64,000 bases of DNA from Iocasia fonsfrigidae (GTDB lineage: Bacteria; Bacillota; Halanaerobiia; Halanaerobiales; DTU029): assembly GCF_017751145.1 (NCBI RefSeq), contig NZ_CP046640.1, positions 724,137 through 788,136 on the forward strand. Direction: 5' to 3'. The position numbers and the translations under genes were made by a program. The notes beneath the pieces were generated by a model. That model was not told the DNA's origin, made no database searches, and saw nothing but the letters and a program-made list of their open reading frames with translations. Shown one piece after another: positions 24,460-54,843 of this stretch (position 1 is the stretch's first letter; every line of letters starts with the position of its first letter).

Positions 24460-24469
24460 AGATAAATTA

Positions 24470-25216
24470 ATGTATTTTTGGGGATATTTTTTATACAGCA
24501 TTGGGGTAAAAAAGAGAGCTAAAAATATATTTATAAAGCTAGATGATGGTTCAGATTGGAAATTAAAGTTATTGTTAGCTAGAATTAATATATCTATGGA
24601 TGAATTTAATAAAGCATTAAAATACCTTGATGAAGTAATGACTTTAGTAAGTGATAGTAAGATAAAAAGAATATTATTAGAAGATAAAATAAGTATTTTA
24701 TTCAAATTAGAAAAATATAATGCTGCATTAAGTATATTAGAGAAAGAAGATCAAGATGATGTTAATATATTGGAAATGATAGCTAACATATATTTGAAAA
24801 AGGATGACTTGGATTTGGCTGAAAGTTATGCTAAAAAAATAAATACAATTGACCCTGTAAATGAAACAGCAATTTTTCTTTTAGTAGGAATAAACTATAA
24901 AAGAAAAAAATATAATGAAACAATAAAATATTGTAATAAATTATTGAAATATGATAAAGAAACTGCATTAAGGCTTTTAGCTAATTCATACTTGGAATTT
25001 AATGATTTGGTAATGGCAGAAAAGTATTTTAAAAAATTGAGATCTAAATATAGTGGCCAACTGGCCACTATATTTACTCATGCTAGACTTGAATATAAAA
25101 AAGGAAACATAAAAAAAGCATACAAAATTTTAAAATTTATAGAAGACCAAGGAATTGAATGTAACGAAGATTTTTACGGAATATATAATCAAGTAAAAAA
25201 AGAAATAGAGAAATAA
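24470..25216 (+). CDS. TPR-repeat protein directly behind the Rhs tip (candidate immunity or partner)
   Basis: The protein has about 248 aa, is Lys-rich and is built of helix-turn-helix TPR/Sel1-like repeats (for example AESYAKKINTIDPVNETAIFLLVGINY and MAEKYFKKLRSKYSG). No signal peptide is convincing. The start is unclear. The frame opens at a TTG at 24437 inside the Rhs gene. The good GGAGGTGGG site (24440-24448) points to the non-standard codons ATA 24452 or ATT 24455, while the first ATG is 24470; I give the ATG. Overlap or abutment with the Rhs stop suggests tight coupling. Rhs loci usually encode immunity right after the tip, so this gene is the first candidate. A TPR scaffold that helps export or assembly is the alternative. 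Base composition is strongly AT-rich like the tip. Confidence 0.6.
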   Translation: MYFWGYFLYSIGVKKRAKNIFIKLDDGSDWKLKLLLARINISMDEFNKALKYLDEVMTLVSDSKIKRILLEDKISILFKLEKYNAALSILEKEDQDDVNILEMIANIYLKKDDLDLAESYAKKINTIDPVNETAIFLLVGINYKRKKYNETIKYCNKLLKYDKETALRLLANSYLEFNDLVMAEKYFKKLRSKYSGQLATIFTHARLEYKKGNIKKAYKILKFIEDQGIECNEDFYGIYNQVKKEIEK

Positions 25217-25229
25217 TGGAGGTTGAAAA

Positions 25230-25433
25230 ATGGCTAGAATAATTGCTTTTTTTATAAATATGCTTCCTGGTGTTTTTTTAGTCAGTTTTATTATTTCTAT
25301 TATAATTTTAGCTAGGGTAATATTTAATATTAAATCATTAATAATAATTGATGGTTCTAAAAAAATATTTATTGCAATAGTAGTTTTGGTAATTATTATT
25401 ATAGTTTCATTTATTCAATTGCTATCTTATTAG
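25230..25433 (+). CDS. Small two-helix membrane protein
   Basis: This 67-aa protein starts at an ATG preceded by GGAGG at good distance (ATGGAGGTTGAAAA), 13 bp after the TPR gene. Two hydrophobic segments (about residues 3-27 and 43-65) with a short charged loop between suggest an inner-membrane protein with two spans. It is the third gene of the tip cassette, so it could be the immunity protein if the tip toxin acts on membranes, as its glycine-rich hydrophobic part might suggest. There is no similarity that I can name. AT-rich composition matches the tip and the TPR gene, so the three probably moved together. Confidence 0.55.
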   Translation: MARIIAFFINMLPGVFLVSFIISIIILARVIFNIKSLIIIDGSKKIFIAIVVLVIIIIVSFIQLLSY

Positions 25434-25524
25434 TAAATTCAAAGCATTTTCATAAAAATAGTGGTACTATATCTATGATGAGACGGTAATTTAACTTCTA
25501 AGGATAATCAGGTCACAAGGAATA

Positions 25525-27051
25525 TTGATGGCAGTCTTTCCCTGGTCAAAGACAGTCCTGGCAGTATACTGGGAGTATGAGTATACGGCTGATAATCTTT
25601 TGCAGAAAGCATATTATAAAGGGGAAATAAAGGCTGAGTATAGTTATGATGCTGACGGTAAGCGGATAGTCTCTGATACTGAGGAAGGAAAGAGATACTT
25701 TGTCTTTAATTACAGTGGGAAGGTTATTTATGAGGAAAGTATAGGTTCTGATGGAGAGAATAAAGTAACTTCGTATGTCTATGCTTTGAGCAAACAAATG
25801 GCGCGGGTTGAAGGAGTTATTGGTGGTGAAGGAGAAGTAATATATTACCACCATGATAACCTTGGTTCAACGAGATTAATGACTAACTCTGCTGGTAAAG
25901 TAGTCTTTGATCAGGATTATCTACCTTTTGGTGGAGATTTGGCTGTTGTTGGTGACCTTGAACCTGTGAATGATGTAGGTGAAGGTTATAAATATACCGG
26001 GCAAAGACAGGAAGTTTCTATTGGGTTATATTACTATGGAGCCAGGTTCTATGACCCTGATTTAGGTAGGTTTATAACTGAGGATAGTTATGCTGGGGAA
26101 ATAGTTAATCCACAGGGGCAGAATATCTACGTGTATGTTATGAATAACCCCATGAAGTATGTAGATCCTAGTGGGCATAAATGGGAATTTAATGCTGATT
26201 CCTGGGAGTGGATGGCTACAGAAGAAACAGATAAGTTATGGCAATTAGTCGATGAAGCTAAATTCAACTCCTGGCAGGAAGCAGCAGAATATGCTGGAAT
26301 TAAAGACTGGTATGATGACGAAGGGAATCGTATAAGAGGTAAAAATAGATCACTTGTAGGTATGGGAATAAAGGCGCCATTAGATATTTATAAGGCTGAA
26401 TATGCTGGGTTTGATGGAACAGTAATTCAAGCAGGATATAAAGATAATAGTATGTCAGTAGTATGGAATCTATCAGATGTGACAGTTGAAAATATAAGGA
26501 CAAATGATGCGTTTTCTACAAGTTTATTTTCTTATATATCCGATTCACAACAAACAGGATTTTCACTACCCAATCTGGGATTAAATGTCTCCACGCTATA
26601 TGGTGCTTTTCCTAAACATTATAGTGATTTTTTGACAGATGAGGCACACAGAGAAGAGTTATATAATTCCTTACTCGGAGATACAAAATTAGAATTTACA
26701 AATTTTGTATTTGGCACTTACACCCGTGTTGAAAATAAGTACTGGCGTGGTGAGTCTGTAAATTATGGATTACTCGGAAAGAAAATCAAGATTGGAAAAC
26801 TTGCAATAGGTGGTATTGGAAAAGGTAATTTAATTCAACATACTTCATATGAACAGAAGTATGGTTTAGGGAGAATAAATCTTATTCCAGGTCAAGAAAT
26901 GCTTTATAAAAGAAAATCTGAGTTTGAAAGGATAATTGGGGTTGCAAATCATTCTGGCTGGGGTACAAGTGGCTTAGATTGGGAAAAATATAAAAATATT
27001 TTAGAATTAGAAGCAGAGAAAAATTATCGTCAATTATGGGGGATGAATTAA
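25525..27051 (+). CDS. Displaced Rhs tip cassette (partial core plus alternative C-terminal domain), probably silent
   Basis: From about 25468 the DNA repeats the 3' part of the Rhs core (counterpart 22915-23628), ending in DPSGH at 26164-26178. It then carries a completely different 290-aa tip. The 5' end is broken: relative to the main gene it has small indels, including loss of 2 nt near 25567, so the frame upstream does not match. The open frame starts only at a TTG (25525) or ATG (25528) without a ribosome site, and there is no signal peptide. This is the typical structure of an orphan rhs tip that can replace the expressed one by recombination in the shared core. The tip (AT-rich, with GIKDWYDDEGNR and TSYEQKYGLGRINLIPGQEM) is unknown to me and has no motif that I can assign. 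Confidence 0.8.
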   Translation: MMAVFPWSKTVLAVYWEYEYTADNLLQKAYYKGEIKAEYSYDADGKRIVSDTEEGKRYFVFNYSGKVIYEESIGSDGENKVTSYVYALSKQMARVEGVIGGEGEVIYYHHDNLGSTRLMTNSAGKVVFDQDYLPFGGDLAVVGDLEPVNDVGEGYKYTGQRQEVSIGLYYYGARFYDPDLGRFITEDSYAGEIVNPQGQNIYVYVMNNPMKYVDPSGHKWEFNADSWEWMATEETDKLWQLVDEAKFNSWQEAAEYAGIKDWYDDEGNRIRGKNRSLVGMGIKAPLDIYKAEYAGFDGTVIQAGYKDNSMSVVWNLSDVTVENIRTNDAFSTSLFSYISDSQQTGFSLPNLGLNVSTLYGAFPKHYSDFLTDEAHREELYNSLLGDTKLEFTNFVFGTYTRVENKYWRGESVNYGLLGKKIKIGKLAIGGIGKGNLIQHTSYEQKYGLGRINLIPGQEMLYKRKSEFERIIGVANHSGWGTSGLDWEKYKNILELEAEKNYRQLWGMN

Positions 27052-27549
27052 ATGGCTCTTTTTAATATGAACAATAAAACATTTATTACACTAATTGTTA
27101 TATCTACCTTACTATTTTATGCAATGGTTTATATACCTTCAATTGAGGGCAAAAAATATCATGAAGAATTTAAAAAGACAAAATTTGATGAATTAAGTAT
27201 TAAAATGCATGATAATTTTACAGATGAAAAAATAGAGGCAGAAATTACAGATAGAAATGAACTAGAATTTTATTATAATATATTTGCTAATAAACTTGAA
27301 TATGCTCAAATTAAAGAAAGAAAATTATACTCCTATTCTATTTTTTTTAGATTTTATAATAAAAAGAGTAAAAAATATTATATATTTAAAGTATTTTTTG
27401 ATCATACAAAAGAAGTTGAACGCCCAGTATTTCTTAGAGTAAAAGAAGAAGACCCTGGTGGATATGGTTTTGCCTTGAGTGATGAAGACTTTCAATTTTA
27501 TCAAAAAATAATGGAAATATGGGAGATATCTGAGAAGAGTAGAATATAA
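27052..27549 (+). CDS. Candidate immunity protein for the displaced Rhs tip
   Basis: The 165-aa product begins at an ATG that directly abuts the stop of the tip (TAA followed by ATG). One N-terminal hydrophobic segment (about residues 10-28, TFITLIVISTLLFYAMVYI) suggests a membrane-anchored protein with a soluble, charged domain outside the cytoplasm. The coupling to the tip and its AT-rich composition match those of Rhs immunity genes. The membrane anchor would fit neutralising a toxin that enters from the cell envelope. No family is recognised. If the tip is silent, its expression would need an own promoter, which I could not identify. Confidence 0.6.
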   Translation: MALFNMNNKTFITLIVISTLLFYAMVYIPSIEGKKYHEEFKKTKFDELSIKMHDNFTDEKIEAEITDRNELEFYYNIFANKLEYAQIKERKLYSYSIFFRFYNKKSKKYYIFKVFFDHTKEVERPVFLRVKEEDPGGYGFALSDEDFQFYQKIMEIWEISEKSRI

Positions 27550-27568
27550 GATTGAAAATGAAAGTAAT

Positions 27569-27604
27569 CCCCGGACTGGATAAGTTTTGGGGGTTCTTTT
27601 ATTT
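27569..27604 (+). terminator. Probable terminator after the displaced tip cassette
   Basis: CCCCGGACT and AGTTTTGGGG pair with two G-U pairs and one bulge around a GGATA loop. They are followed by a T-rich tail (TTCTTTTATTT). Confidence 0.5.
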
Positions 27605-27635
27605 AATGTAGATGCTAAATATACAGTGAATCAAT

Positions 27636-27863
27636 TAACTTCGTATGTCTATGCTTTGAGCAAGCAAATGGCTAGAGTAGAAGGAGTTATTGGTGGTGAG
27701 GGAGAAGTTATATATTACCATCATGATAACCTTGGTTCTACCAGGTTGATGACTGAAAGATGGTGAAGTTGTCTTTGACCAGGATTATCTGCCATTTGGT
27801 GGAGATTTAGAGCCGCAGAATGATGTTGGGGAGAGATATAAATATACTGGGCAGAGGCAGGAA
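27636..27863 (+). pseudogene. Degraded third copy of the Rhs core 3' region
   Basis: This 228-bp stretch matches the core from TSYVYALSKQ to YTGQRQE (compare 23219-23463 and 25769-26010). It has lost 2 nt within the former LMTDEDG codons (frameshift near 27757) and about 15 nt in the GGDLAVVGDLEP part. Point differences (CAAATGGC) place it closer to the displaced copy than to the main gene. It has no tip domain behind it, so it is a dead remnant and evidence of repeated tip exchange. Confidence 0.85.
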
Positions 27864-42973: not shown

Positions 42974-43143
42974 TATATAAGTAGCACTTAAATATTGCAC
43001 TTTTCCGTTCCAGCCAATTATATTAATTCCGCTTGTCGTTCGTTACGGCGTCGTGCCTCCACTCACTGTCACATATTTTTCACTCCGGCGTCCTGCCTAC
43101 GTGAAAAATATAGAGTTGCTCCATTAATATAATTGGCTTACAC
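42974..43143. repeat. Large nested palindrome (variable-arm family, copy B) inside the secretion operon
   Basis: Outer arms AGCCAATTATATTAAT (43012-43027) and its complement (43123-43138) enclose inner arms ATATTTTTCAC (43073-43083) and its complement (43101-43111). Unpaired segments CCGCTTGTCG, TCCGGCGTCCTGCC and AGAGTTGCT are shared with copy D, although the arms differ. The left flank of 56 bp (42974-43029) is repeated exactly at 52047-52102. Confidence 0.85.
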
Positions 43144-43233
43144 AAAGCATTAGTGTGAATAGATTAAATGGAATTTATATAACTAACTAACTAACAAAAT
43201 AAGCCCGTTTGGGTGTTGAGTTCAGGTGATGAC

Positions 43234-44448
43234 ATGGTTGAGTATACCTATCAGGCATATAACAAAACTGGAAAACAGGTTTCAGGGAGTATCGAGGCAG
43301 TTACGGAAAATGAGGCTGCCAGAAAACTTTCAAGTGAAGGATTATATCCGTTTAAATTGGAAATGAAAAGCAAGTTAGGAAATGATGCCAGGGGTTTACG
43401 CTATACCACATCTAATAATAGAAGTGAAATGCAGATATTTTTCACCAGACAGCTGGCTAATTTATTATTAGCAGGGGTCCAGTTAGCTGATGCTTTAAAC
43501 ATTTTGGTAAAAATGATGAGTAATAATAGTTATCAAGGGATAGTAGAAAACATATATAAATCCCTTAAGAGCGGTAAGAGTTTTGCTGATTCACTCACTA
43601 CATCTGCAGGAAAATTTTCTGCTAATTATATAAATATGATCCAGGCCGGGGAAGAGAGTGGCGCCCTGGGTTTAACCTGTCAAAAGCTTGCCGCTGATCT
43701 GGAAGAGAGAAAAAAGCTTAAATCATTTATCTTAACTAGTTTAATATATCCAGTTATTTTACTGATAGTCTCTATTCTGGCTGTTACAGTTATGCTGGTT
43801 TTTGTACTACCCAGATTTATTGAGATATACCAATCATATAATATGACTTTACCCTGGATTACTCAAATTGTATTAAGTTTTAGCTTTTTTTTAAAAACTA
43901 ACTGGATAAATATTGCTATACTTTTTATAGCTGCTATAACTAGCAGCTGGTTTTATTTTAGTACTACAGCGGGGAAAAACAATATTGATAGGTTTGTTTT
44001 ATATACCCCCTTTCTAGGTAATCTTGTCAAAAAAGTAAAGACAAGTGATTTTGCAGCAAGTTTGAGCCTGATGCTGGGGAGTGGTGTTCCACTTTTAAAA
44101 TCATTAAGTATTATTGCTGAAACTGCTGGTAATGTAGTCTATAGAGATGGTATCAGAAAAACAGCAGAGGGGGTTAAGAAGGGAAAAAAATTATCAGAAG
44201 CCCTGAGCAGTTCCGGTGTTTTTCCTCAAATTCTAAACTATATGATAATGATCGGTGAAGAAACCGGTCAACTTCCCAGGATGCTGGAACAGGTGGCTGA
44301 ACAATATAAGGAGGAGTACCAGAATAACATCAATAGATTATTAAATTTATTTGAACCATTGGCGATTTTGGTGATGGGGACATTAATCGGTGGTATTATA
44401 ATAGCAATGTTACTACCGATTCTGGGTATTAATACAATATCATTTTAG
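43234..44448 (+). CDS. gspF: Type II secretion inner-membrane platform protein GspF
   Basis: I chose the ATG at 43234 (404 aa), after a TTCAGGTGA site; the start of the frame at 43213 adds unlike residues. The order is canonical: an N-terminal YTYQAYNKTGKQVSGSIEA segment, then two GspF cytoplasmic repeats (about 70-190 and 270-390). The repeats carry FFTRQLANLLLAGVQLADAL and TSDFAASLSLMLGSGVPLLKSL, each followed by membrane spans, with a last span LAILVMGTLIGGIIIAMLLPI. It forms the platform with GspE and GspL/M. Confidence 0.95.
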   Translation: MVEYTYQAYNKTGKQVSGSIEAVTENEAARKLSSEGLYPFKLEMKSKLGNDARGLRYTTSNNRSEMQIFFTRQLANLLLAGVQLADALNILVKMMSNNSYQGIVENIYKSLKSGKSFADSLTTSAGKFSANYINMIQAGEESGALGLTCQKLAADLEERKKLKSFILTSLIYPVILLIVSILAVTVMLVFVLPRFIEIYQSYNMTLPWITQIVLSFSFFLKTNWINIAILFIAAITSSWFYFSTTAGKNNIDRFVLYTPFLGNLVKKVKTSDFAASLSLMLGSGVPLLKSLSIIAETAGNVVYRDGIRKTAEGVKKGKKLSEALSSSGVFPQILNYMIMIGEETGQLPRMLEQVAEQYKEEYQNNINRLLNLFEPLAILVMGTLIGGIIIAMLLPILGINTISF

Positions 44449-44467
44449 AAAGGGAGAATGATAGAAA

Positions 44468-44914
44468 ATGTTAAGAACTTTAAAAAAAGAAGATGGTTTT
44501 ACATTGATAGAAATATTGATAGTAGTAGTAATTATAGGTTTTCTGGCAGCTACTGTCGGCCCGAACTTATTTAACAGGGTATCTGAGGCCAGACAAACAG
44601 CAGCTCAGAATCAAATGGATATTTTTAAACTGGCCTTAGATAATTATCGACTGGATAATGGTCAGTATCCAACAACCCAGCAGGGGCTGGCAGCTTTAAT
44701 AAAAGAACCGGGTATTCCACCTCTGGCAAAGAACTGGAATGGTCCTTATCTAGATAAAAAGGAGATCCCCCTTGATCCCTGGGGAAATGAATATCAGTAT
44801 CTTATCCCTGGTAACCATAATGACCATAAATATGACCTCTGGTCCAGGGGGAAAGATGGTAGTGATGGTGATGAAGACGGAAGTGGTGAAGGGGCAGATG
44901 TTACTAACTGGTAG
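44468..44914 (+). CDS. gspG: Major pseudopilin GspG
   Basis: The 148-aa protein has cleavage site DG|FTLIEILIVVVIIG with Glu at +5, the alpha-helix, and the GspG-specific C-terminal part (NGQYPTTQQGLAALI, GPYLDKKEIPLDPWGNEYQY). The Asp-rich calcium loop near the end (KDGSDGDEDGSG) is unusually acidic, which might reflect high salt. This is the main subunit of the pseudopilus that pushes substrates through the secretin. The 3' end overlaps gspH by 17 bp. Confidence 0.97.
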   Translation: MLRTLKKEDGFTLIEILIVVVIIGFLAATVGPNLFNRVSEARQTAAQNQMDIFKLALDNYRLDNGQYPTTQQGLAALIKEPGIPPLAKNWNGPYLDKKEIPLDPWGNEYQYLIPGNHNDHKYDLWSRGKDGSDGDEDGSGEGADVTNW

Positions 44915-45332
44915 AGAGAGAGGTACTACCTTGATAGAGGTATTGATTCTGATGATGCTAATTGCTGTTGTCAGTGCAGTAATTATCCCTTCTTTTGGTG
45001 GACTCAAAGATAGCATAATGGTTAATACATATCAACGTAAAATAGACAGGTATTTTAATATAATTAGAAGAAGTGCCGTTAATAGTGGACAGGAAGAGAC
45101 TATTAATCTTGGTAGAAATAATATAAGCTGTAATTTAAGTAATGGTGAAAGCCTTAAACTGGATTTTGCAGATGAAAATATCTTGACCCTGGAATATGAA
45201 GAAAAACAGATTATATTTTATCCTGATGGGACAAGTTCCGGTGGGGAGATATTATTGGTTTTTAATAAGAAAGAAAGATATTACTTTCAGATTAATTCTA
45301 TTACAGGAGAAACAGGGTGGTATGAACCATGA
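44898..45332 (+). CDS. gspH: Minor pseudopilin GspH
   Basis: I start it at ATG 44898 (144 aa), after GGTGAAGGGG, since the frame upstream is only the out-of-frame gspG. The processing site is RG|TTLIEVLILMMLIA with Glu at +5. The C-terminal beta domain is compact and variable (IICNLSNG-like, YPDGTSSGGEILLV), as in GspH/FimT. It overlaps gspG at its start and gspI at its stop (ATGA), so translation is coupled. Confidence 0.85.
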   Translation: MLLTGRERGTTLIEVLILMMLIAVVSAVIIPSFGGLKDSIMVNTYQRKIDRYFNIIRRSAVNSGQEETINLGRNNISCNLSNGESLKLDFADENILTLEYEEKQIIFYPDGTSSGGEILLVFNKKERYYFQINSITGETGWYEP

Positions 45333-45682
45333 GTAATGAAAAAGGCTTTACCCTGATTGAGGTTCTCATAGCCATGGTTATACTAGGGATCAGTTTTACT
45401 ATCCTGATAGAAGGATATAGAACTATTATGGCCAGTGCAGAGAGGAATAGAGATTATCTACTGGCTGCCAAATGGTCTGAAGATAAATTAATAAGTATTG
45501 TCAATGGTGACGACTCGGACCGCCGTGGTTATTTTGAAGAAAACGGTAAAGAGTATAGCTGGTGGGTAGAAGAAAAATGCCTTGATGATAATCTTATTAG
45601 ATTTGATTTAATAATGAGCTGGCCGGGTCTAAGGGCAGAAATAAAATATAGCTGTAGTAGATATCTAGTAAGGAGCCAGTAA
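45329..45682 (+). CDS. gspI: Minor pseudopilin GspI
   Basis: The 117-aa protein has processing site KG|FTLIEVLIAMVILGISF and Glu at +5, with a short C-terminal domain typical for GspI (EDKLISIVNGDD, GYFEENGKEYSWW). It belongs to the tip complex with GspJ and GspK. Its ATG overlaps the gspH stop. Confidence 0.88.
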   Translation: MSNEKGFTLIEVLIAMVILGISFTILIEGYRTIMASAERNRDYLLAAKWSEDKLISIVNGDDSDRRGYFEENGKEYSWWVEEKCLDDNLIRFDLIMSWPGLRAEIKYSCSRYLVRSQ

Positions 45683-45683
45683 G

Positions 45684-46271
45684 ATGAAGGAAGAAGGTTT
45701 TACTTTACTGGAGATTTTAATAGCTATAACGATTACAGGAATTGTATTTGGAGCTGTTTTTGCCTTTTTACACCAGGGACTAATGATCTGGGAGGATTTT
45801 GGAGAAGATGAGGATTACAGTCAGTATATCCGGGTTCTGGATAGTAATTTAAAAAATGACCTTAAATATATTTTTTGCTCTGAATATAGTACAAAAAATT
45901 TGTTAAAGGGTGATTATTATAGTGGTCTGGAGTTTTACATATTAAAGGATGACATCTTACAGAAGATTAGATATGAAGCGGATTACCGGCAGAATAGTAT
46001 TGTAAAAACTGCTACAACAATTGATGAGTTAACTGAAGACACAGAAGAAAAAACAATATCCTTTGTAGTTGGTAAAGAAATAACTGACATATTATTCTAT
46101 TATTATAATCCGGAGAATAATTATTGGGAAAGCAGTTGGTCATATAGTGATGAGACGAAAGGCTATCTACCGGCTGCTGTAAAGATTGAAATCAAACACC
46201 GAAAAGGTGATAATATCGAGAAGCTGGTGGAGATATTAGGGGAGATTTATGTAGGTAGAATATATAAATAA
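45684..46271 (+). CDS. gspJ: Minor pseudopilin GspJ
   Basis: The 195-aa protein has processing site EG|FTLLEILIAITITGI with Glu at +5. It is longer than GspI and H, with the beta-rich domain of GspJ (LEFYILKDDILQKIRYE; LPAAVKIEIKH, the latter corresponding to the common PxxVxI strand). It follows gspI by one base and precedes gspL by 20 bp. Confidence 0.87.
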   Translation: MKEEGFTLLEILIAITITGIVFGAVFAFLHQGLMIWEDFGEDEDYSQYIRVLDSNLKNDLKYIFCSEYSTKNLLKGDYYSGLEFYILKDDILQKIRYEADYRQNSIVKTATTIDELTEDTEEKTISFVVGKEITDILFYYYNPENNYWESSWSYSDETKGYLPAAVKIEIKHRKGDNIEKLVEILGEIYVGRIYK

Positions 46272-46291
46272 GAAGATAAAGTGGAGGTAAA

Positions 46292-47593
46292 ATGGTGGAG
46301 TTCTTTAAAAAATACCAGACTTATATTTTGATTGATGATAGTATTATCCAGTTAGTTCAGCTAAAAAAGGGAGAATTAATATTTAATAATGTTTACGATT
46401 TTAACCCACTGCAGAACAGAATATCAGAATACTTGGAAATGTTGCAAAAAAAGACAAAAACAGTCAAAATAATAGTTCCATCAACGAAATTAATGATAAA
46501 AACCCTGGAACTACCACCGGTTTCTGATAATAAAATTAACGATATCTTACAATTTAAATTTATTAATGAATTACCATATGCCAGTAATGAAATTTATTAC
46601 AGGTATCTAAGAAACAGTAAATCTGCTGATAAGCAGGGACTGGCTGTTGCCGTCAGCAAAAAATACATAACAGAGATTACCGAGCTTTGTTCCAAAGAGG
46701 GTCTTGCAATTAAAGGTCTCTTACCCCTAAGCCCTTTGTTCTATCTAGATTATCATAATAAACAGGGGATTGAGGACAGCCTTTATATTAATATTAACTG
46801 TCATTATTGTTATTTTACTTTGATTTATAATAATGATAGTTACCTAAAAGGATGTGGATATACTGGTAAAATTGATTTATATGATGAAATAGTAAGGATA
46901 TATGAATATGGTCAGGAAGAGATTGGCCAGAAAGAGATTTCTATTGTTATAAATGGTGAAACAGTTAACTTTAATGATATAAATAAATTTCTGACAGGTC
47001 TGGATATTGCTAGTATAGATGATAATCGGCTCTGGAAAAAATTTTATAGTTTAGAAAAGAGACTCATCTCACTGGATTTTTATCAATTGCTTCCACAGGT
47101 TAAACAGCAGAAAAAAAGAATAAAGTCTATTTCTATTGGTATTTTACTACTATTAATTTTCTTAGTTAACGGGACAACCCTTTATTATAAATGGCAAGAT
47201 AAAAAAAATTATATTGACTATCTTGCTACTCTTGAAACTAAGCAACAGACAATAGTTGATGAAATAGAACAGCTTAATGAAGAATGTCAGCTTATTGCTG
47301 TCGAACTGGAATTTTATAGTAATATTATAGGTGAAAACAACTACAGTTACCTGCCCTGGCTGCAGGAAATAAGTAATCTCCTACCAGAAGGAACCAGGGT
47401 AAATAGCATAAATTTTAAGGATAAAGAACTAGTGCTTCTGGCAGGTAAAGCTAAATCAGCAGCTGATGTACTGGCTGCTCTGGAGAGTTCCTCACTTTTT
47501 TCCCAATTACATTTTATCGGTAGTATCAATCTGGAAGAGGATCTGGAGAGTTTTAAGATTGCAGGTGATTTAATCTATGAAACTAACAATTAG
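46292..47593 (+). CDS. gspL: GspL-type platform protein (PilM-like plus PilN-like halves)
   Basis: The 433-aa protein has a cytoplasmic actin-like part (residues 1-270, opening YILIDDSIIQLVQLKKGE, with VPSTKLMIKTLELPPVSDNKI). It has one membrane span (about 278-296, SIGILLLLIFLVNGTTLYY) and a periplasmic coiled coil plus ferredoxin-like domain (about 300-430, LPWLQEISNLLPEGTRVNSINF). This corresponds to PilM and PilN of type IV pili joined in one chain, as in GspL. It recruits GspE and links it with GspM. The end overlaps gspM by 17 bp. Confidence 0.85.
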   Translation: MVEFFKKYQTYILIDDSIIQLVQLKKGELIFNNVYDFNPLQNRISEYLEMLQKKTKTVKIIVPSTKLMIKTLELPPVSDNKINDILQFKFINELPYASNEIYYRYLRNSKSADKQGLAVAVSKKYITEITELCSKEGLAIKGLLPLSPLFYLDYHNKQGIEDSLYININCHYCYFTLIYNNDSYLKGCGYTGKIDLYDEIVRIYEYGQEEIGQKEISIVINGETVNFNDINKFLTGLDIASIDDNRLWKKFYSLEKRLISLDFYQLLPQVKQQKKRIKSISIGILLLLIFLVNGTTLYYKWQDKKNYIDYLATLETKQQTIVDEIEQLNEECQLIAVELEFYSNIIGENNYSYLPWLQEISNLLPEGTRVNSINFKDKELVLLAGKAKSAADVLAALESSSLFSQLHFIGSINLEEDLESFKIAGDLIYETNN

Positions 47594-48149
47594 AGAGAGA
47601 CGTCTGCTAACAATGGCAGCTATTGTCATTTCATTTATTTCAATTTATAGCTGGATATATAAACCTGTTAGTGATTATTATTTTCAACAATTAGAAAGGG
47701 AGATTGAATTAAGTCATCGACTTGATAGAAATAAGATGCTGATAGCAAGAGGGCCTAAATACCGGGAAATGATAGAAACTGCCACCAGTAAGATTGAAAA
47801 ATACCAGCAATTTTTTTTTCATGGAAGTACCGCTCAGCTCCGATTAGAGGTAATTAATACAATTGATCAGGAAGCCAGAAATAATAATTTGAATTTGAAA
47901 AACAAAGCTCTGAGTATCTATCCTGGATCAGAGGAAACTACCGGTAATAAATTAACTCTGGTGGAATATCGGGGAAATTTTACCGGGAGTTTTAGAGATA
48001 TATTGTTTTTTTTAAATAGTCTCAACAAACAAAAGGAGCTTTACCAGCTTACAGAATTACAGCTTAAAGGTGGGGAAAATTCTGATGTTTTATCACTATT
48101 TATAAAAATTGCTGTCTACTGTATAGGGGATGATGAAAATGAGGTCTAA
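47577..48149 (+). CDS. gspM: GspM/PilO-like platform protein
   Basis: The 190-aa protein has one N-terminal membrane span (LTMAAIVISFISIYSWIYKPV), then a coiled coil and a ferredoxin-like domain with the PilO/GspM pattern (LVEYRGNFTGSFRDILFFLNSLNKQKELYQLTELQL). It pairs with GspL in the periplasm. It overlaps gspL at its start and gspD at its end. Confidence 0.82.
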   Translation: MKLTIRERRLLTMAAIVISFISIYSWIYKPVSDYYFQQLEREIELSHRLDRNKMLIARGPKYREMIETATSKIEKYQQFFFHGSTAQLRLEVINTIDQEARNNNLNLKNKALSIYPGSEETTGNKLTLVEYRGNFTGSFRDILFFLNSLNKQKELYQLTELQLKGGENSDVLSLFIKIAVYCIGDDENEV

Positions 48150-49926
48150 TAAATATGTTTTAATTTTTCTTATCTTAGTGTTTTGTATTCTGTCAACAAA
48201 TGTTACAGCTGAGGATAAATTAGTAACACTTAAAGTACGTGGTGCTAACATTAATGATGTCTTGTTAATGTTAACAGAACAGAGTGGGATCAATCTGGTG
48301 CCTGATGAAACTGTACAGGGTCAGGTGACTATTGATTTAAGGGATGTAAATATACAGGATGCTTTAAGGACCTTGACTATTGCCTATGGTTATCATTTTG
48401 ATATGATAGCAGATAATATCTATCTGGTTAGTAGAGAAGGTTTTAACCAGCCAGCAGAAATAAATGTAAAAAATGGTCGTCTGACTGTAATTGTAGAAAA
48501 TGGAGACATCAGGAATATATTGAATCAAATAGCGCAAATGGCTGCTCTAAATATTGTGATGGATGCCCAGATAAATGGTACTGTATCGGCGAATATCAAA
48601 GATGTGCCTCTGGAGATTGGTTTAATGAGTTTTTTACAGGCCAATGGTTTTTCTCTAAGCAAGAGTAATAACATCTACCGTATCTTTGCCAGTGGCAAAG
48701 GTGGAATGCCGAATAATCTATCAATCTCTGTGGTAGATGGAATGGTCAGTATTGATGTCCAGCAGGCAGACCTGAGTGAAGTTTTAAGAACTATTTCGAG
48801 ACTGGCTACTATTAATATGGTGCTCTTTAGTGGAGTGCGTGACACAATAGACTTAAAACTTGATAATGTGCCCCTTGAAGAGGTAATTGATGTTATTCTA
48901 TCAGGAACTAGATTTACTTATAAGTATAGTGAAGGGGTCTATCTTATTGGAGATAAAAATCCTAATAGTTATTCTGCTAATCTTTTAACTACAAATGAAA
49001 TAATACCTCTGGAATATTTACAGGTGGAGGATGTACCACAGCTTTTACCTAATAATTTTCCCACAGCAAATGTCAAAGTAATTAAAGAACAAAATGCCTT
49101 AATGGTGACCGGAACACAGCAGGAGATTGATGGACTGAAAAAATACATTAATAAGATAGATGCCAAGATACCTCAAATAGTTGTTGATGCCTTGATTATC
49201 CAATTAAACAAAAGTAAAAATGAAGGCCAGGGTATTAAAATCGGTTCACTATATGAGGATAATGATAATGAAGAAAAAGCTACAGTTCTTTTTGATACTG
49301 CCGAAGGACAGATTAACTATAAATCGGTCTTAAAACTACCCAATGATTTCTATTTTAAAATTAATAATCTTGTTACTCAAGGGTTGGCTACAGTCAAAGC
49401 CCGTCCTAATATCACTACTTTAAACGGACAGCAGGCCAATATAGATGTTAGTACTACTCAGTATTATAAGATTGTTGAGACAGATAGCGATGGTAATGAA
49501 GATATATCATATGAGAGTGTGAGTGCCGGGGTAACCCTGGAAGTAACACCCTGGGTCAGTAGTACTGGAGAGATAACCCTTAATCTAAAACCTGTAGTTA
49601 GTAATATCGGTTCTGCTGCTCTTGATGGTGGTCGACCTCCGGTTGACCGCCGGGAGGCCAGTACTACAATCAGGATAAAAGATGGCCATACTATAGTTCT
49701 TGGTGGGTTAATACAGGATGTAAGGTCAAATACTAAAACCAAAGTACCGTTTTTCAGTAAACTGCCGCTTATCGGCTCCTTATTCCGTACAAATGACAGT
49801 GATATATCCCAGACAGAGCTGGTTATTTATATAACCCCACATGTTCTTAAAGAGCGAGAGGAGGATGTCAAAGAAGATATGCAGGAGATGAATGATAAAG
49901 TTGATAAGGTTGGAGAGGGGATTTAG
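48139..49926 (+). CDS. gspD: Secretin GspD (outer-membrane channel)
   Basis: I choose the ATG at 48139 (595 aa), which is 9 bp behind AGGGG; ATGs at 48130 and 48133 are too close. A signal peptide (MRSNKYVLIFLILVFCILSTNVTA) is followed by STN/N0-type domains: TLKVRGANINDVLLMLTEQS, then two more of the same type at about 105-175 and 195-265. An N1/N3-like domain follows (about 275-345, PLEYLQVEDVPQLLPNNFP). The C-terminal secretin barrel (about 350-580) contains GVTLEVTPWVSSTGEITLNL, PVVSNIG and VPFFSKLPLIGSLF. Three STN-like repeats make it partly PilQ-like. A secretin needs an outer membrane, so this gene supports a diderm envelope. It is the last gene of the operon. Confidence 0.95.
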   Translation: MRSNKYVLIFLILVFCILSTNVTAEDKLVTLKVRGANINDVLLMLTEQSGINLVPDETVQGQVTIDLRDVNIQDALRTLTIAYGYHFDMIADNIYLVSREGFNQPAEINVKNGRLTVIVENGDIRNILNQIAQMAALNIVMDAQINGTVSANIKDVPLEIGLMSFLQANGFSLSKSNNIYRIFASGKGGMPNNLSISVVDGMVSIDVQQADLSEVLRTISRLATINMVLFSGVRDTIDLKLDNVPLEEVIDVILSGTRFTYKYSEGVYLIGDKNPNSYSANLLTTNEIIPLEYLQVEDVPQLLPNNFPTANVKVIKEQNALMVTGTQQEIDGLKKYINKIDAKIPQIVVDALIIQLNKSKNEGQGIKIGSLYEDNDNEEKATVLFDTAEGQINYKSVLKLPNDFYFKINNLVTQGLATVKARPNITTLNGQQANIDVSTTQYYKIVETDSDGNEDISYESVSAGVTLEVTPWVSSTGEITLNLKPVVSNIGSAALDGGRPPVDRREASTTIRIKDGHTIVLGGLIQDVRSNTKTKVPFFSKLPLIGSLFRTNDSDISQTELVIYITPHVLKEREEDVKEDMQEMNDKVDKVGEGI

Positions 49927-50172
49927 AACTAATTGGTCTGATGGCTACTATGTGTGGGTGTGAGTATGTCTGGTAAAAACACAGGGTTTAATCTTATTTT
50001 ACAGACATTAATATCCATTTTAAAGCAGATCCATTCAAAACTACAATTTCGAATATAATTAGTTTAATTATAGAAGAGATAATATCTTTTTTTCTACCAA
50101 AAAAAGGAGTTTATTATTTAATCTAGAAAATTAATTTATGTCTTATCAATTTTTAAATTGGGAGTGATTTAG
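49927..50172 (+). other. Intergenic region after gspD
   Basis: About 245 bp. No gene or clear terminator was found. AGGAGTT (50105) and GAAAATT (50126) keep the 21-nt offset of the sigma-H-like sites but match less well, and may be the promoter of the next gene. Confidence 0.35.
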
Positions 50173-51393
50173 ATGCTAAAATACAAAAAATTTATTGTTT
50201 TTCTGATATTTTTATTTGGACTAATGCTTTTATCATCATTTACATTTGCAAACAACCTTTCAAATCAAAAACTATGTTTTATATCAGACCGATTTGGAAG
50301 TTATGATTTGTTTCTAATAAATGGCGATGGATCTAATTTAAAGAGATTAACAACAAGTGATCTAGATGAAACAAATCCGGTTTGGTCTCCAGATGGCAAA
50401 AAAATACTTTTTTTAAGTCGCAAAGGATATGCAATAAATGATGAGTTTGATTTATGGGTTATTAATGCAGATGGTAGTAATATAGTTAAAATTGATACAG
50501 ATATTCGTGTATATAATAGTCGTATGCCTAAATGGTCTCCTGACAGTTCCAAAATTTTATATGTCACAGACAGTGAGAAAAGATTAAAAATTTATGATTT
50601 AAAAAACAATACTACATTGAATTTACTGGATTCAGATACAGAAGTAGAATACCCTTGCTGGTCCCTGGATGGAACTATGATATTAACATATTTAAAAAAC
50701 AATAAAGAAAGAGGAGTTTACTTAATAAGTCTTAATGGAGATGATAAAATAAAATTATTTAATAATAAAGGTAGTTATGAAATTTTTTCCTGGGCACCAG
50801 ATGGTAGTAAATTTGCCTATATATACACAAAACCGTTTTTTAGTTTTGGAGGCAAAAAATCTGGCATGTATGTAGTTGATAAAAATGGAAAGAAAGATAA
50901 ATTTTTGGGAGATGCATATTACTATGAATGGTCTCCTGATAGTAAATTTATAGTATTTCTAAAAAAATCTTATACTACTTATCAAGATGAATCGTATACA
51001 CATTACTCAACGTATATTATAAATGCTGAAATTAATAATAAAAAAAACAAAGCCCAATTATTAATTAGTATTACCGATTTTGCATCATTCCCAGTCTTGT
51101 CTCCAGACGGAATGAAAATAGCGAATAAAAGTCCAAATAAAGTATATATCAGAGAATTAAGCAGTGGTGAAGAAATAGAAATTAAAATCCCTGGTAGTGG
51201 TCTCTACGAAACTAACCCAAATTGGTCCTTAGATAGTGAAAATCTCGTCATTGTAGGTTATCCTAAACTTTTTACAGGTGACACTGATTTATTTATCGTT
51301 AACTACAAAGATGGTCAAATATATAAGCTTACAAATACTGAAAAAGCAAGCGAAGATACTCCAGTATGGTCTCCAGTATTTTATTCAGAGTGA
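50173..51393 (+). CDS. Exported TolB-like beta-propeller protein
   Basis: The 406-aa protein has a signal peptide (about 1-26, FLIFLFGLMLLSSFTFA) and at least six PD40/WD40-like blades with the pattern (P)xWSPDGKKIxF: NPVWSPDGKKILFLSRKG, MPKWSPDSSKILYVTD, SWAPDGSKFAYIY, YEWSPDSKFIVFLKK, VLSPDGMKIANKS and NPNWSLDSENLVIVG. TolB in diderms is part of the Tol-Pal system, but this protein lacks the TolB N-terminal domain. No tolA/Q/R or pal is nearby. It may bind envelope or secreted proteins. It is a single gene, ending at the terminator 51423. Confidence 0.82.
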   Translation: MLKYKKFIVFLIFLFGLMLLSSFTFANNLSNQKLCFISDRFGSYDLFLINGDGSNLKRLTTSDLDETNPVWSPDGKKILFLSRKGYAINDEFDLWVINADGSNIVKIDTDIRVYNSRMPKWSPDSSKILYVTDSEKRLKIYDLKNNTTLNLLDSDTEVEYPCWSLDGTMILTYLKNNKERGVYLISLNGDDKIKLFNNKGSYEIFSWAPDGSKFAYIYTKPFFSFGGKKSGMYVVDKNGKKDKFLGDAYYYEWSPDSKFIVFLKKSYTTYQDESYTHYSTYIINAEINNKKNKAQLLISITDFASFPVLSPDGMKIANKSPNKVYIRELSSGEEIEIKIPGSGLYETNPNWSLDSENLVIVGYPKLFTGDTDLFIVNYKDGQIYKLTNTEKASEDTPVWSPVFYSE

Positions 51394-51422
51394 AACTAAA
51401 TTATTTTCAGAATAAAAGAATT

Positions 51423-51475
51423 AAGGCTTCGAGAAAAAATATGTAAAATATATTAGTTTCTTGAAGCCTTTTTTA
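51423..51475 (+). terminator. Terminator of the TolB-like gene
   Basis: AAGGCTTCGAGAAA (51423-51436) pairs with TTTCTTGAAGCCTT (51457-51470; one G-T pair) and is followed by a run of T. Confidence 0.88.
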
Positions 51476-51601
51476 TACATTAAAGATGTCAAAATTTAAT
51501 TTGGTCAACGTATTGCTGTGTTAGTGCTGAACTGTCCTTCATTACTTAAAATATATATTTAAGAGAAGGGGATATTAAATTTGTTTTAATAAATCAGAAA
51601 T

Positions 51602-52027
51602 TCAAACAAAATATCTGTCAAGGATGCCCTGTAACATCTGGGCATGGCGGGCTTCATCGCGGGATGATTCATGGAAATAAGCGACTGCTTGTTCTATGCC
51701 CAGTTCAGCTGCTTTATCTGCTGTTCCTTTTTTGCCTTTATTAGCCCCTTGCTCTCCTTTTAGCATATCTTCAATATTCTTCTTGGTGCTGCTAGATATT
51801 TTGCCGTTTAATTCGGCAAAATGTGAGGCATGTTCAGCCTCTTCCCAGGCAATTCTTTTTAATACCTCTGCAACCTCTGGATATCCCTCACGCTGGGCCT
51901 GACGTGCCATAGCCAGATATAGTCCTACCTCTTCAGTTTCACCGGTAAAGTTCATATTTACAGCCTCTTCAACAGCACTTCCTTTTGTAACTCCCATCTT
52001 TACCTCATTGTCAAATTTCAAATTCAT
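51602..52027 (-). CDS. Rubrerythrin-like ferritin protein without rubredoxin domain
   Basis: The 141-aa protein (start ATG at 52027, with GGAGG 9 bp upstream on the minus strand; the longer TTG start at 52033 is less likely) has the four-helix di-iron fold. Metal ligands are suggested by [29 protein letters not shown] and [10 protein letters not shown]. The rubredoxin CxxC domain of classical rubrerythrin is absent. Such proteins reduce hydrogen peroxide in anaerobes. A sigma-A promoter with the same +1 palindrome as the peroxiredoxin gene points to joint oxidative-stress control. Confidence 0.9.
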
Positions 52028-52046
52028 AATCAATACCTCCTGTTTT

Positions 52047-52102
52047 TATATAAGTAGCACTTAAATATTGCACTTTTCCGTTCCAGCCAATTATATTAAT
52101 TC
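52047..52102. repeat. 56-bp exact copy of the left end of palindrome B
   Basis: Positions 52047-52102 equal 42974-43029 base for base, covering the flank and the left outer arm AGCCAATTATATTAAT. The rest of the element is missing, so this is a truncated copy. It lies in the leader of the rubrerythrin gene. Confidence 0.9.
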
Positions 52103-52124
52103 TGCGTTAAGGAATAATCAATAA

Positions 52125-52167
52125 TAATAACTATTAGTATTATAAAAGAACTAAAATGTTTTGTCAA
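52125..52167 (-). promoter_or_regulatory. Sigma-A promoter of rubrerythrin with +1 palindrome
   Basis: On the minus strand TTGACA (52162-52167) and TATAAT (52139-52144) have a 17-bp spacer. TAATAGTTATTA (52125-52136) lies at the expected start site. The counterpart at the peroxiredoxin promoter is at 3597-3608. Confidence 0.82.
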
Positions 52168-52310
52168 GTGTTTTATTGATTTTTTGTATAAAAAGGTATA
52201 TTTAATCAAGGAATAGCTAAAGCGGCTTTATTAGAAACTAAAGAAGCAGGTATTCAAGCCAATTAATTCTTATTATTTCCATTAAGGCCTTTTTAATATG
52301 TAACTACAGC

Positions 52311-52338
52311 AGGATATTGACAGTAAATGTAGAATGTA
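52311..52338 (+). promoter_or_regulatory. Sigma-H-like promoter of the two-component genes
   Basis: GCAGGATAT (AGGA at 52311) and TAGAATGTA (GAAT at 52332) show the common 21-nt offset. The response regulator starts 37 bp further on. Confidence 0.55.
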
Positions 52339-52374
52339 GTTTTTAAGTCATTATAATTAAGGGATGGGGTTTTT

Positions 52375-53067
52375 ATGGCCAGGAAAATATTAGTGGTTGA
52401 TGATGAAGAGAAGATACGTAGAGTTAGCAGGGCATTTTTAGAAAATGAAGGATATCAGGTCAGGACTGCTGCTGATGGTTTGGCTGCCCTGAAGATGGTT
52501 GCTGAATATAAGCCAGATCTCCTTGTGCTTGATTTAATGCTGCCTGGTATTAGTGGTGAAGAGGTCTGTCAGAGGATAAGAAACAGCTATAATTTGCCGA
52601 TAATAATGCTAACTGCTAAAGGGACAGAGGCTGATAAGATTAAGGGGTTTCAATATGGTGCTGATGATTACCTGGTAAAACCCTTTAGTCTTAAGGAACT
52701 GACTATGAGGATTAGGGCGGTTTTGCGCCGTGGTAGTAGTGATCTCCCAAGGGCTGATGTCCTGGTTTATAATAATGGTTTGATAAGAATCTATCCAGAA
52801 AAGATGATAGTTGAACAGGAAGGGGAAACAGTTGATTTAACTAAAACAGAGTTTGATATTTTCTATTTTTTAGCCAGTAATCCCGGTCGTGTCTTTAATA
52901 GGGATAAGATAGCTGAAAGGGTAATGGGAATAGAATTTACAGGGTTTGATAGGACCATAGATGTCCATATAAAGAATATCAGGAAGAAACTAAAGTTAAA
53001 ACGAGGCCAACTTATTGAGACAGTTTACGGTGCTGGCTATAAGTTCAGGGATGATTTAAATGAGTAA
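52375..53067 (+). CDS. OmpR/PhoB-family response regulator
   Basis: This 230-aa DNA-binding regulator has a receiver domain (1-120) with acidic pair D9-D10, phosphoacceptor D53 (LLVLDLMLPG), Thr of MLTAK and Lys of LVKPFS. The C-terminal winged helix (about 130-228) carries LTKTEFDIFYFLASNPGRVFNRDKI and TIDVHIKNIRKKL ... ETVYGAGYKF. It overlaps the kinase gene by 8 bp and so is the partner of that kinase. Its likely target is the Spy/CpxP-like gene downstream, which has a -10 box without a good -35 box, as is usual for activated promoters. Confidence 0.95.
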   Translation: MARKILVVDDEEKIRRVSRAFLENEGYQVRTAADGLAALKMVAEYKPDLLVLDLMLPGISGEEVCQRIRNSYNLPIIMLTAKGTEADKIKGFQYGADDYLVKPFSLKELTMRIRAVLRRGSSDLPRADVLVYNNGLIRIYPEKMIVEQEGETVDLTKTEFDIFYFLASNPGRVFNRDKIAERVMGIEFTGFDRTIDVHIKNIRKKLKLKRGQLIETVYGAGYKFRDDLNE

Positions 53068-54451
53068 ACTGGGTTTTAAAATATTTTTAATAATATTACT
53101 AATAGCTCTAGGTGGTCTTCTTTTTACCAGCCTTTATTTAAACATTAGCATTAACCGTAATTTTACTAATTACCTGTACCAGGATAGGAAAGAAAAAATT
53201 GAACAGTTAATTGGATTATTGAAAGATAGTTATCAGGCAGAGCATAACTGGTTACAGGGACGCTTGCTAACAGCCAATTTTGCTAAAACAAATGACCTTT
53301 CTTTAATCCTGGAAGACAGGGTAGGTAATATACTATATCATTATGATAATCATATGATGGGACCAGGTATGATGCAGCAGCATGGTATGATGAATAGAAG
53401 AAGGACTCCTATTGACGACAGTCGTTTCCCCGCGGAGATATTTAAAATAGAGATTAATGGGAATAGAGTAGGGACACTCTACTGGTACCGGGATAGAGAG
53501 TATAGTAATTTATCAGAAGCAGCCAGTTTCTTTATTAAGAAGATTAATGCTGGTATCCTGATAGCGGGAATACTGGTAGCCCTGATTACGATTGTTATTA
53601 GTCTATTTTTTTCCCGTTACTTGACTACTCCCTTGCTAAAGATGAATAGGATAGCCCAGCGAGTCGCTGAAGGTGATTTTAATCATCATCTTATTGTTAA
53701 AGGAAATGATGAGCTGGCTGAACTGGGTAATTCGATAAATGAAATGACAGACAAACTAAACTACCTGGAAAGGATAAGGCGGGAGTCTACAGCTGACCTG
53801 GCTCATGAGCTGAGAACCCCCTTAACTACTATTAAGAATTACCTAGAGGCAGTTACAGCAGGGGTCTGGCAGTTTAATAATGAAACCGCTGCCGAGATAG
53901 AGGAGGAATTAGATAGACTGGTCAGGCTAGTTAATCGTCTGGGGGAATTATCGGAGGCGGAAAAAGGTGTTGTTAAAGGAAAATTGAAGCCTATTGATTT
54001 ATCAGAAATTTTTCCAGAACTGCTTGAACATTTCAGGCCGCTGGCAGTCAATAGGGGTATAGATTTAGTCCTTAAAGAGGCTGCAGAAAACTGTTTTATT
54101 AAAGGTAATAGGGACAGTATTGAGACAATTGCAAATAACCTCCTTTCTAATGCTTTAAAATATACCCTGCCTGGGGGAAGGGTTGAGATGAGACTAGCTA
54201 AGACTGATACTCAGGTCTGTTTATCTGTAACCGATACTGGTCTAGGGATTTCTGCTGAGGATTTACCTTATATATTTGAAAGGTTTTATAGGACTGACAG
54301 GTCGCGCTCCAGTAAAACGGGTGGTACTGGTATAGGACTGACCATAACTAAAGAGCTTGTCAGGGGTATGGATGGGGAGATTAAAGCATTAAGTGAGGGG
54401 GAAAATAAAGGTAGTACCTTTACAATTATCTTTCCATTAATAACAAAGTGA
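53060..54451 (+). CDS. Membrane sensor histidine kinase with Met/His-rich sensor loop
   Basis: The 463-aa protein has a first membrane span (about 6-27), an extracytoplasmic sensor of about 135 residues, and a second span (about 165-188, INAGILIAGILVALITIVISLFF). HAMP follows (RYLTTPLLKMNRIAQRVAEGDF), then the H box ADLAHELRTPL with phosphorylated His near residue 249. The N, G1 and G2 boxes follow (NNLLSNALKYT, DTGLGISAEDL, TGGTGIGLTI). The sensor contains HMMGPGMMQQHGMMNRR, a Met/His-rich loop suited to bind copper or another soft metal. Together with a Met/His-rich Spy-like protein this suggests an envelope or metal-stress system. Confidence 0.93.
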   Translation: MSKLGFKIFLIILLIALGGLLFTSLYLNISINRNFTNYLYQDRKEKIEQLIGLLKDSYQAEHNWLQGRLLTANFAKTNDLSLILEDRVGNILYHYDNHMMGPGMMQQHGMMNRRRTPIDDSRFPAEIFKIEINGNRVGTLYWYRDREYSNLSEAASFFIKKINAGILIAGILVALITIVISLFFSRYLTTPLLKMNRIAQRVAEGDFNHHLIVKGNDELAELGNSINEMTDKLNYLERIRRESTADLAHELRTPLTTIKNYLEAVTAGVWQFNNETAAEIEEELDRLVRLVNRLGELSEAEKGVVKGKLKPIDLSEIFPELLEHFRPLAVNRGIDLVLKEAAENCFIKGNRDSIETIANNLLSNALKYTLPGGRVEMRLAKTDTQVCLSVTDTGLGISAEDLPYIFERFYRTDRSRSSKTGGTGIGLTITKELVRGMDGEIKALSEGENKGSTFTIIFPLITK

Positions 54452-54474
54452 CTACGTCATTCTAAATTGTTCGA

Positions 54475-54706
54475 GAATAATTTTAATTCTTCCGCTTGTC
54501 GTGCGCCACAGGCACTCCGTATCTGACCAAACCATACGAGAACAGTTTAAGGTTGCACTCCGGCATCCGTGCCTCTGTTCTCTGTCACAACTTTTTACTT
54601 CAAAGCATAGAGTCACGCTATGAAGCAAAGCTTCAAGCCGTGCTTCTAATGTTCCGGCGTCCTGCCACCACAAAAAGTTAGAGTCGCTACAGAATTAAAA
54701 TTATTC
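54475..54706. repeat. Large multi-branched palindrome (variable-arm family, copy D)
   Basis: Outer arms GAATAATTTTAATTCT (54475-54490) and its complement (54691-54706) enclose AACTTTTT (54589-54596) / AAAAAGTT (54672-54679), a GAGAACAG / CTGTTCTC pair and small hairpins. Unpaired parts CCGCTTGTCG, CACTCCGGCATCC, TCCGGCGTCCTGCC and AGAGTCGCT recur from copy B while the arm sequences are different. It starts 24 bp after the kinase gene and might also stop transcription. Confidence 0.82.
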
Positions 54707-54843
54707 ATATACAATTTACTTATCCACAATTTCAAAATCACATAATTCCTAGTAGACGTTAAAAAAAGTAGATTAAATTCATATTTCCTTCACAATTATC
54801 TCCTATAATATAATTAAAGAATTTTAAACAAGGAGATGATAGA

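Follow-up and report, generated by a model that had tools for sequence, protein, structure and literature searches.

Pneumococcal BOX elements are built from nested hairpins in a modular way; their outer ends are complementary and may enclose additional inner units. Integron attC sites, like the single-strand origins of rolling-circle plasmids, function in the form of folded single-stranded DNA (ssDNA) whose stem sequence is largely free. Repetitive extragenic palindromes (REPs) are palindromes that measure 20-40 bp and bear an unpaired tag, GTAG or CGTC, by the account in PMC3733652, and small transposing derivatives of 229, 360 and 679 nt are recorded for IS801 of Pseudomonas syringae in PMC3189936. 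Here we describe a DNA module that occurs twice (copies B and D) in a 64-kb window, the whole stretch analysed (G000:C1:724137-788136), from the single 3.93 Mb contig of Iocasia fonsfrigidae. Its loops and junction strands are fixed, its stems vary freely as long as they match, and it seems to be as DNA that the pairing is maintained. Nested hairpins and optional inserts are shared with BOX elements, and free stems, in what would be folded ssDNA, with attC sites and single-strand origins, as far as general descriptions of those elements go. The module resembles REPs and REPINs in being a dispersed intergenic palindrome with conserved unpaired bases but differs from them in being a 126-nt three-way junction that lacks a GTAG or CGTC end tag.

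The module is about 126 nt long. Its outer stem of 16 bp encloses two stem-loops, one short and the other longer. From its start, the left strand of the outer stem (16 bp) is followed by the junction strand CTTGTCG, a first stem-loop tipped GGYG-TCC-TRCC, the junction strand CTGTC, a second stem of 10-11 bp tipped GGCG-TCC-TGCC, the junction strand AGAGTCG and finally the right strand of the outer stem. The extra short stem-loop between the outer arm and CTGTC is what gives the overall shape of a three-way junction. The junction strands and TCC loops are constant in the family while the stem sequences vary.

Within the window the family covariance model matches at two places only, copies B and D. 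Both were found where a preliminary description had placed them, and their outer arms are, as it had reported, self-complementary within each copy and unrelated between the two: AGCCAATTATATTAAT/ATTAATATAATTGGCT in copy B and GAATAATTTTAATTCT/AGAATTAAAATTATTC in copy D are each perfect 16-bp complements. Folded as DNA, copy B has a z of -6.1 and copy D a z of -3.6 against dinucleotide shuffles. The start given earlier at 42974 turned out to be where a longer repeat, of about 42974-43181, has its left end. The segments described as shared and unpaired are indeed shared, but not all of them are unpaired. A small hairpin closed by a TCC loop is formed by GGCGTCCTGCC, and at least one base pair joins CTGTC to AGAG and flips from C-G to G-C between clades (C-G in 76, G-C in 14, T-A in 3 and unpaired in 8 of the 101 rows read, with 34 further rows unreadable to the script). 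The parts of the two copies are as follows.

43012..43138, forward strand: copy B, complete three-way-junction module (model match 128.2 bits, E 4e-27; fold z -6.1).
43012..43027, forward strand: copy B, left arm of the outer stem, AGCCAATTATATTAAT (direct reading).
43032..43038, forward strand: copy B, conserved junction strand CTTGTCG (nearly invariant in the 33-copy alignment, common in the 13-genome alignment).
43073..43083, forward strand: copy B, left arm of the inner stem, ATATTTTTCAC (direct reading; pairs in the covariation alignment).
43084..43100, forward strand: copy B, terminal loop TCCGGCGTCCTGCCTAC with a GGC/GCC mini-hairpin (direct reading; covariation alignment).
43101..43111, forward strand: copy B, right arm of the inner stem, GTGAAAAATAT (direct reading; covariation alignment).
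43112..43122, forward strand: copy B, conserved junction strand AGAGTTGCTCC (direct reading; 33-copy alignment).
43123..43138, forward strand: copy B, right arm of the outer stem, ATTAATATAATTGGCT (direct reading).
54475..54706, forward strand: copy D, complete module plus two inserts (model match E 2.2e-10 in the window, 2.5e-5 genome-wide).
54475..54490, forward strand: copy D, left arm of the outer stem, GAATAATTTTAATTCT (direct reading).
54508..54556, limits approximate, forward strand: copy D, insert module I, within the first stem-loop (also carried by copies of sub-B and sub-A, e.g. 226759 and 850156).
54597..54651, limits approximate, forward strand: copy D, insert module IV in the second stem-loop (same insert at 1479679; diverged at 3328506).
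54691..54706, forward strand: copy D, right arm of the outer stem, AGAATTAAAATTATTC (direct reading).

Copy D is thus longer than copy B because of two inserted hairpin modules, which other copies carry as well. Such inserts are optional and occupy fixed positions in the stems. The motifs ACGCA and ATCGA are retained in inserts II and V while the matched arms differ, and matched arm changes were also observed in insert II of copy 2839246, so that the inserts too follow the pattern of fixed loops and free stems.

At least three types of the module (A, B and C), differing in both outer and inner arms, are present in the genome. The outer arms are usually common to all copies within one type and do not, as a rule, arise anew with each copy. 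Two copies (1479679 and 1657064) have type A outer arms joined to type C inner parts, which indicates that parts of the module recombine.

The motif CCGGCGTCCTGCC, with one mismatch allowed, was found at 56 places in the genome and its reversed control at none. A covariance model built on 33 aligned full copies without inserts gave 95 matches in the 3.93 Mb genome at E<=1, 94 of them at E<=1e-3. On a MAFFT alignment of the genome's own copies, 89.3% of the cells pair in the proposed structure and 25 of the 41 pairs show changes on both sides. Double-change cells number 161, whereas shuffles gave a mean of 50.1 (sd 5.1) and slid partners 15-25; the rows are related by descent, and this count should not be taken as a probability. 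A second, independent alignment by MAFFT, with 29 rows drawn from 13 genomes and no structure imposed on the fold, yielded 27 predicted pairs, 25 of which have compensatory changes. The preliminary description had proposed covarying arms, and had held that few further copies, or arms that do not covary, would refute it; the number of matches and the strong covariation, which extends across genera, bear the proposal out.

RNA helices tolerate G-U pairs and not A-C pairs, hence G-U should outnumber A-C in a structured RNA. In the stems of the module, with mismatches counted within the best ungapped helix for each distinct pair of arms (80 of 84 outer helices and 79 of 84 inner ones, the rest scoring too low), the outer stems contain 1112 Watson-Crick, 4 G-T, 15 A-C and 24 other pairs, and the inner stems 792, 2, 2 and 8 respectively. 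Summed over both stems, 6 G-T and 17 A-C stand beside 1904 Watson-Crick pairs, and the tolerance of G-U seen in structured RNA is absent. The acceptor and T stems of tRNAs from the same genome, taken as a control (23 distinct tRNAs from 30 loci of 58 matches), gave 12 G-T, no A-C and 264 Watson-Crick pairs, and the G-T to A-C comparison between module stems and tRNAs has a Fisher value of 3e-5. In the fitted alignment 28 A-C cells fall in a single column, which looks like one inherited mismatch; the A-C excess, being concentrated in this way, is no evidence for an RNA from the opposite strand. Since the stems are Watson-Crick only and show no G-U excess, the pairing of the module appears, from the sequence record, to be kept at the DNA level. 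Only tRNAs reach the Rfam gathering score in the window, and nothing above that score was found on five module loci at E<=1.

Orientation is where a structured non-coding or cis-regulatory RNA draws its support. By a simple caller of open reading frames (ORFs), 71 of the 81 copies of sub-A and sub-B are flanked on both sides by genes that share the copy's direction, so that they would be transcribed, but 8 of the 14 copies classed as sub-C oppose both neighbouring genes (these A, B and C classes follow a crude rule that placed a few B copies under C). Moreover, 11 of the 13 copies in another genome, G039, oppose the local leading strand as judged by GC skew. With stems that show no G-U excess and no Rfam match, an RNA role for the module found no support, and we regard it as quite improbable. 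Of the 95 copies, 10 overlap an ORF of 80 aa or more as called by a simple ORF finder. When the terminus is assumed at mid-chromosome, 87 of the 95 copies are in leading-strand sense; among the loci sampled, GC skew changes sign between 1.95 and 2.10 Mb, and all eight copies of the IS91-family element treated below are leading-oriented. The genome's own genes are mostly oriented likewise, and effects of replication and transcription are therefore inseparable here. Replication strand as the cause of orientation was set aside; the copies in G039 are mostly opposite and those in genome G048 mixed.

Watson-Crick-only stems are also what a copying process would yield. Template switching at stalled forks, known as quasipalindrome correction, could re-complement the arms and make their covariation neutral, and the truncation of copies and loss of the module at its stems, seen at 52047-52105 in the window and at loci L204 and L216, suggest that the hairpins may disturb replication. 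Such correction would, however, erase the two mismatches that persist in the first stem. The T-C mismatch is present in 14 of 14 distinct rows from the phylum, 74 of 89 from the class and 12 of 32 from this genome, and the C-T mismatch in 14 of 14, 72 of 89 and 24 of 32 rows respectively. The conservation of loops and junction strands across genera likewise requires selection. Templated palindrome repair ranks first among the rivals and may contribute to the covariation, though as the whole explanation it seems rather unlikely to us. The combination of fixed loops and junctions, free but matching stems and retained pyrimidine mismatches fits the reading of folded ssDNA by a protein.

The module was matched in 13 of 61 related genomes (own included), with 45 matches in G048 alone. 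In a draw from the phylum, 10 of 299 genomes match (own included), and four of these, namely G097, G138, G273 and G324, do not belong to the class. The loops and junction strands of these out-of-class copies are much alike, and their arms differ in composition, one family having GC-rich and another AT-rich arms. A pattern search of contigs returned 14 stretches: ten from Fuchsiella alkaliacetigena (Halanaerobiales, Halobacteroidaceae), one from Candidatus Frackibacter and three others. The covariance model matches one locus each of Fuchsiella alkaliacetigena and Candidatus Frackibacter sp. WG13 (the two tried); the stretches from Streptomyces, Armatimonadetes and Isosphaeraceae fail the model and were rejected. 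No matches were found in contigs with another, different pattern, in viral contigs with one pattern or in phages with one query, and one query of plasmids gave a single 33-base match, in Methylobacterium. No description of the module family was found in text searches of open-licence papers.

In its own genome the module is mostly carried by units related to an insertion sequence. Ten matches to PF04986 were found, eight of which are near-identical copies of one transposase gene. The ORF matches NF033538 (transpos_IS91, 2.2e-85), PF04986 (6.5e-36) and PF14319 (2.6e-23), and therefore contains the Y2 HUH transposase domain (PF04986, NF033538) and the N-terminal zinc-binding domain (PF14319) of the IS91 family. 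Most copies of the module lie within units of about 260 bp whose ends are common to these eight near-identical elements. Types B and C occur in longer units that have, on one strand, AGGAAAYTATGTGATTTTGAAATTGTGGATAACTTT on the 5' side and TGGCGAAGCCATTTTGTTC on the 3' side. Units of this one kind hold the C module in reversed orientation, and certain units hold B plus a reversed C. A search with the 5' end of the B/C units found 23 places in the genome. At least one IS91-type end in forward orientation accompanies 62 of the 95 copies (both ends in 32), and four more have the 5' end reversed, compared with 2 of 95 (5' end) and 6 of 95 (3' end) when the flanks were shuffled. Both type A ends were found for 10 of the 95.

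All eight IS91 copies end in GGGTGGCG(T/G)AGCCATTTTGTTC, like many of the module units, and this 3' end is in common with the B/C units, which share both of their ends with the resident IS91 element. The same eight start with AGGTATAGGAAATTATGTG...TTTGTGGATAACTT, and in each case the GTTC of a further unit or IS91 copy immediately precedes that start; GTTC, with variants, stands at the 3' end of many units. From the end sequences common to units and IS91 copies, the units are probably non-autonomous IS91 mini-elements. The likeness to IS801 lies in the ends that the B/C units share with a Y2/zinc-finger element of the IS91 family and in the GTTC/GAAC tetranucleotide at one end; the IS801 miniatures, in contrast, are 5'-truncated pieces of the insertion sequence, whereas these units have an unrelated three-way junction as their interior. 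At five loci (L246, L251, L253, L254 and L256) mini-units and IS91 copies follow one another head-to-tail with GTTC at the joins, two IS91-IS91 tandems being among these arrays. Three identical 223-nt copies of the module with two inserts (G000:C1:52466, 2566346 and 2631395), two of which adjoin IS91 copies, suggest recent movement.

No module was found between the IS91 copies' own ends, hence it is not needed for IS91 movement. The family does look mobile in this genome, as had been proposed, but the mobile unit is mostly an IS91-type mini-element carrying the structure, not the structure itself. Were the module mobile in its own right and inserting into existing palindromes such as terminator hairpins, its outer arms would be the target. 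Its presence in several unrelated contexts agrees with this, as do the copies in genome G017, whose outer arms differ and one of which resembles a terminator hairpin, and units L204 and L216, which have one palindrome in place of the module (a transposase gene lies directly after the L216 unit). Units without the module are equally well accounted for by deletion between repeated ACAAATATATTTGT arms, however, and the arms are common within a unit type. The arms of sub-A copies and of a copy in genome G003 differ by two matched double changes, pointing to evolution in place, and the inner arms, which cannot be a target, covary too. We therefore consider insertion of the module itself unlikely.

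The explanation that we favour, and hold to be somewhat probable, is that of a folded-DNA module which travels as a passenger on IS91 mini-elements and whose loops are read by a protein on single-stranded or extruded DNA. The mini-units would be moved in trans by the rolling-circle IS91-family (HUH, Y2) transposase, with the module as their passenger and not their transposition signal. It would work when the DNA is single-stranded or extruded, as at a replication fork or in a rolling-circle intermediate. A putative protein would recognise the loops and junction strands, and the stems would merely hold the shape, so that the arms may take any sequence if they match. A direct precedent by analogy for reading of the loop and not the stem may be seen in Helraiser, a rolling-circle transposon in which, by the account in PMC4778049, a swap of the hairpin stem kept about 90% of activity and a change of the loop lost it. 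The likeness is to the 3' hairpin of a Helitron, whose loop is important but whose stem sequence is not (PMC4778049); Helraiser differs in being eukaryotic and in having one simple hairpin near its end, whereas the module is an internal three-way junction.

Several observations weigh against this explanation. Fifteen of the 95 copies have no ends of either vehicle, and the 5' ends of the IS91 element and of the units are alike in two blocks only, at 28 of 48 positions. The module occurs in both orientations within IS91-type units, which a strand-specific signal would not predict. No match to PF04986 (Y2_Tnp) was found in 8 of the 13 module genomes (G001, G017, G038, G039, G042, G046, G048 and G050), hence IS91 cannot be the general mover and the module is not tied to it. 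The units that carry it in G048 have no identified transposase, the IS3 genes there being nested insertions.

The G048 units are 295-731 nt long with inverted ends ATTGATATATTGT, and 39 of 40 distinct units hold the module. A count of target duplications gave nothing beyond the AT that the units have in common. Two further units contain IS3 genes, but IS3 was rejected as the parent of these inverted-repeat units since its genes have their own ends inside the unit. The type A units have ends TATATAAGT...ACTTATATA. The units and fragment in the window are listed below.

42974..43181, ends approximate, forward strand: sub-A repeat unit with left end TATATAAGT, copy B and right end TTTATATA (11 left-end copies in the genome; ends read).
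52047..52105, forward strand: sub-A fragment with the left end and left outer arm but no module (98% identity to 42974-43032; unrelated sequence beyond).
54442..54750, ends approximate, reverse strand: IS91-type mini-unit with copy D reversed, reading AGGAATTATGTGATTTTGAAATTGTGGATAAG ... GTCACTTTGTT on the minus strand (5' end at G000:778855-778886 minus, 3 mismatches; both ends found reversed).

A perfect TTATCCACA, which we take to be the DnaA-box consensus, is present at 54720-54728 and in the 5' end of the B/C units, and the same is found in a G050 copy (L080). The IS91 5' end likewise contains it, within TTGTGGATAA. Elsewhere in the window, repeated stretches of 54-300 nt with 77-96% identity occupy 23016-27863.

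Spread of a REP/REPIN-type palindrome by a RAYT (Y1) transposase appears very improbable. One Y1_Tnp protein of 252 aa, presumably RAYT-like in size, is encoded in the genome at L042 (G000:C1:3694995-3695324). Its presence would suit such a mover, but the module has neither the size nor the end tag of a REP, and Y1_Tnp is present in 46 of the 61 genomes yet absent from G041, a module carrier. Y1/RAYT transposases (IS200/IS605, REP) were accordingly rejected as movers, PF01797 being common and its presence not tracking the module in this genome and across the 61 genomes. The G048 unit ends were absent from one Y1 locus of that genome.

On the reading that we favour, the module would be old, would have been passed between vehicles and would act as single-stranded or cruciform DNA. 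A wider claim, which we advance only tentatively, is that of a previously undescribed, portable DNA-structure module, a three-way junction kept as DNA across several families of one phylum and passing between unrelated mini-transposons, of the rolling-circle IS91 type in this genome and with inverted repeats in others, with its loops read on ssDNA by a protein of the host or of an element.

Covariation is usually taken as a signature of RNA, and here it is very strong without an excess of G-U pairs. Pipelines that search for structures may therefore be classing DNA structures as RNAs, and the count of G-T against A-C pairs provides a simple way to separate the two. The natural series of free stems with fixed loops offers a means to seek a protein that reads folded ssDNA, and the resident IS91 element together with its mini-elements provides a system on which the reading of loops can be tested.

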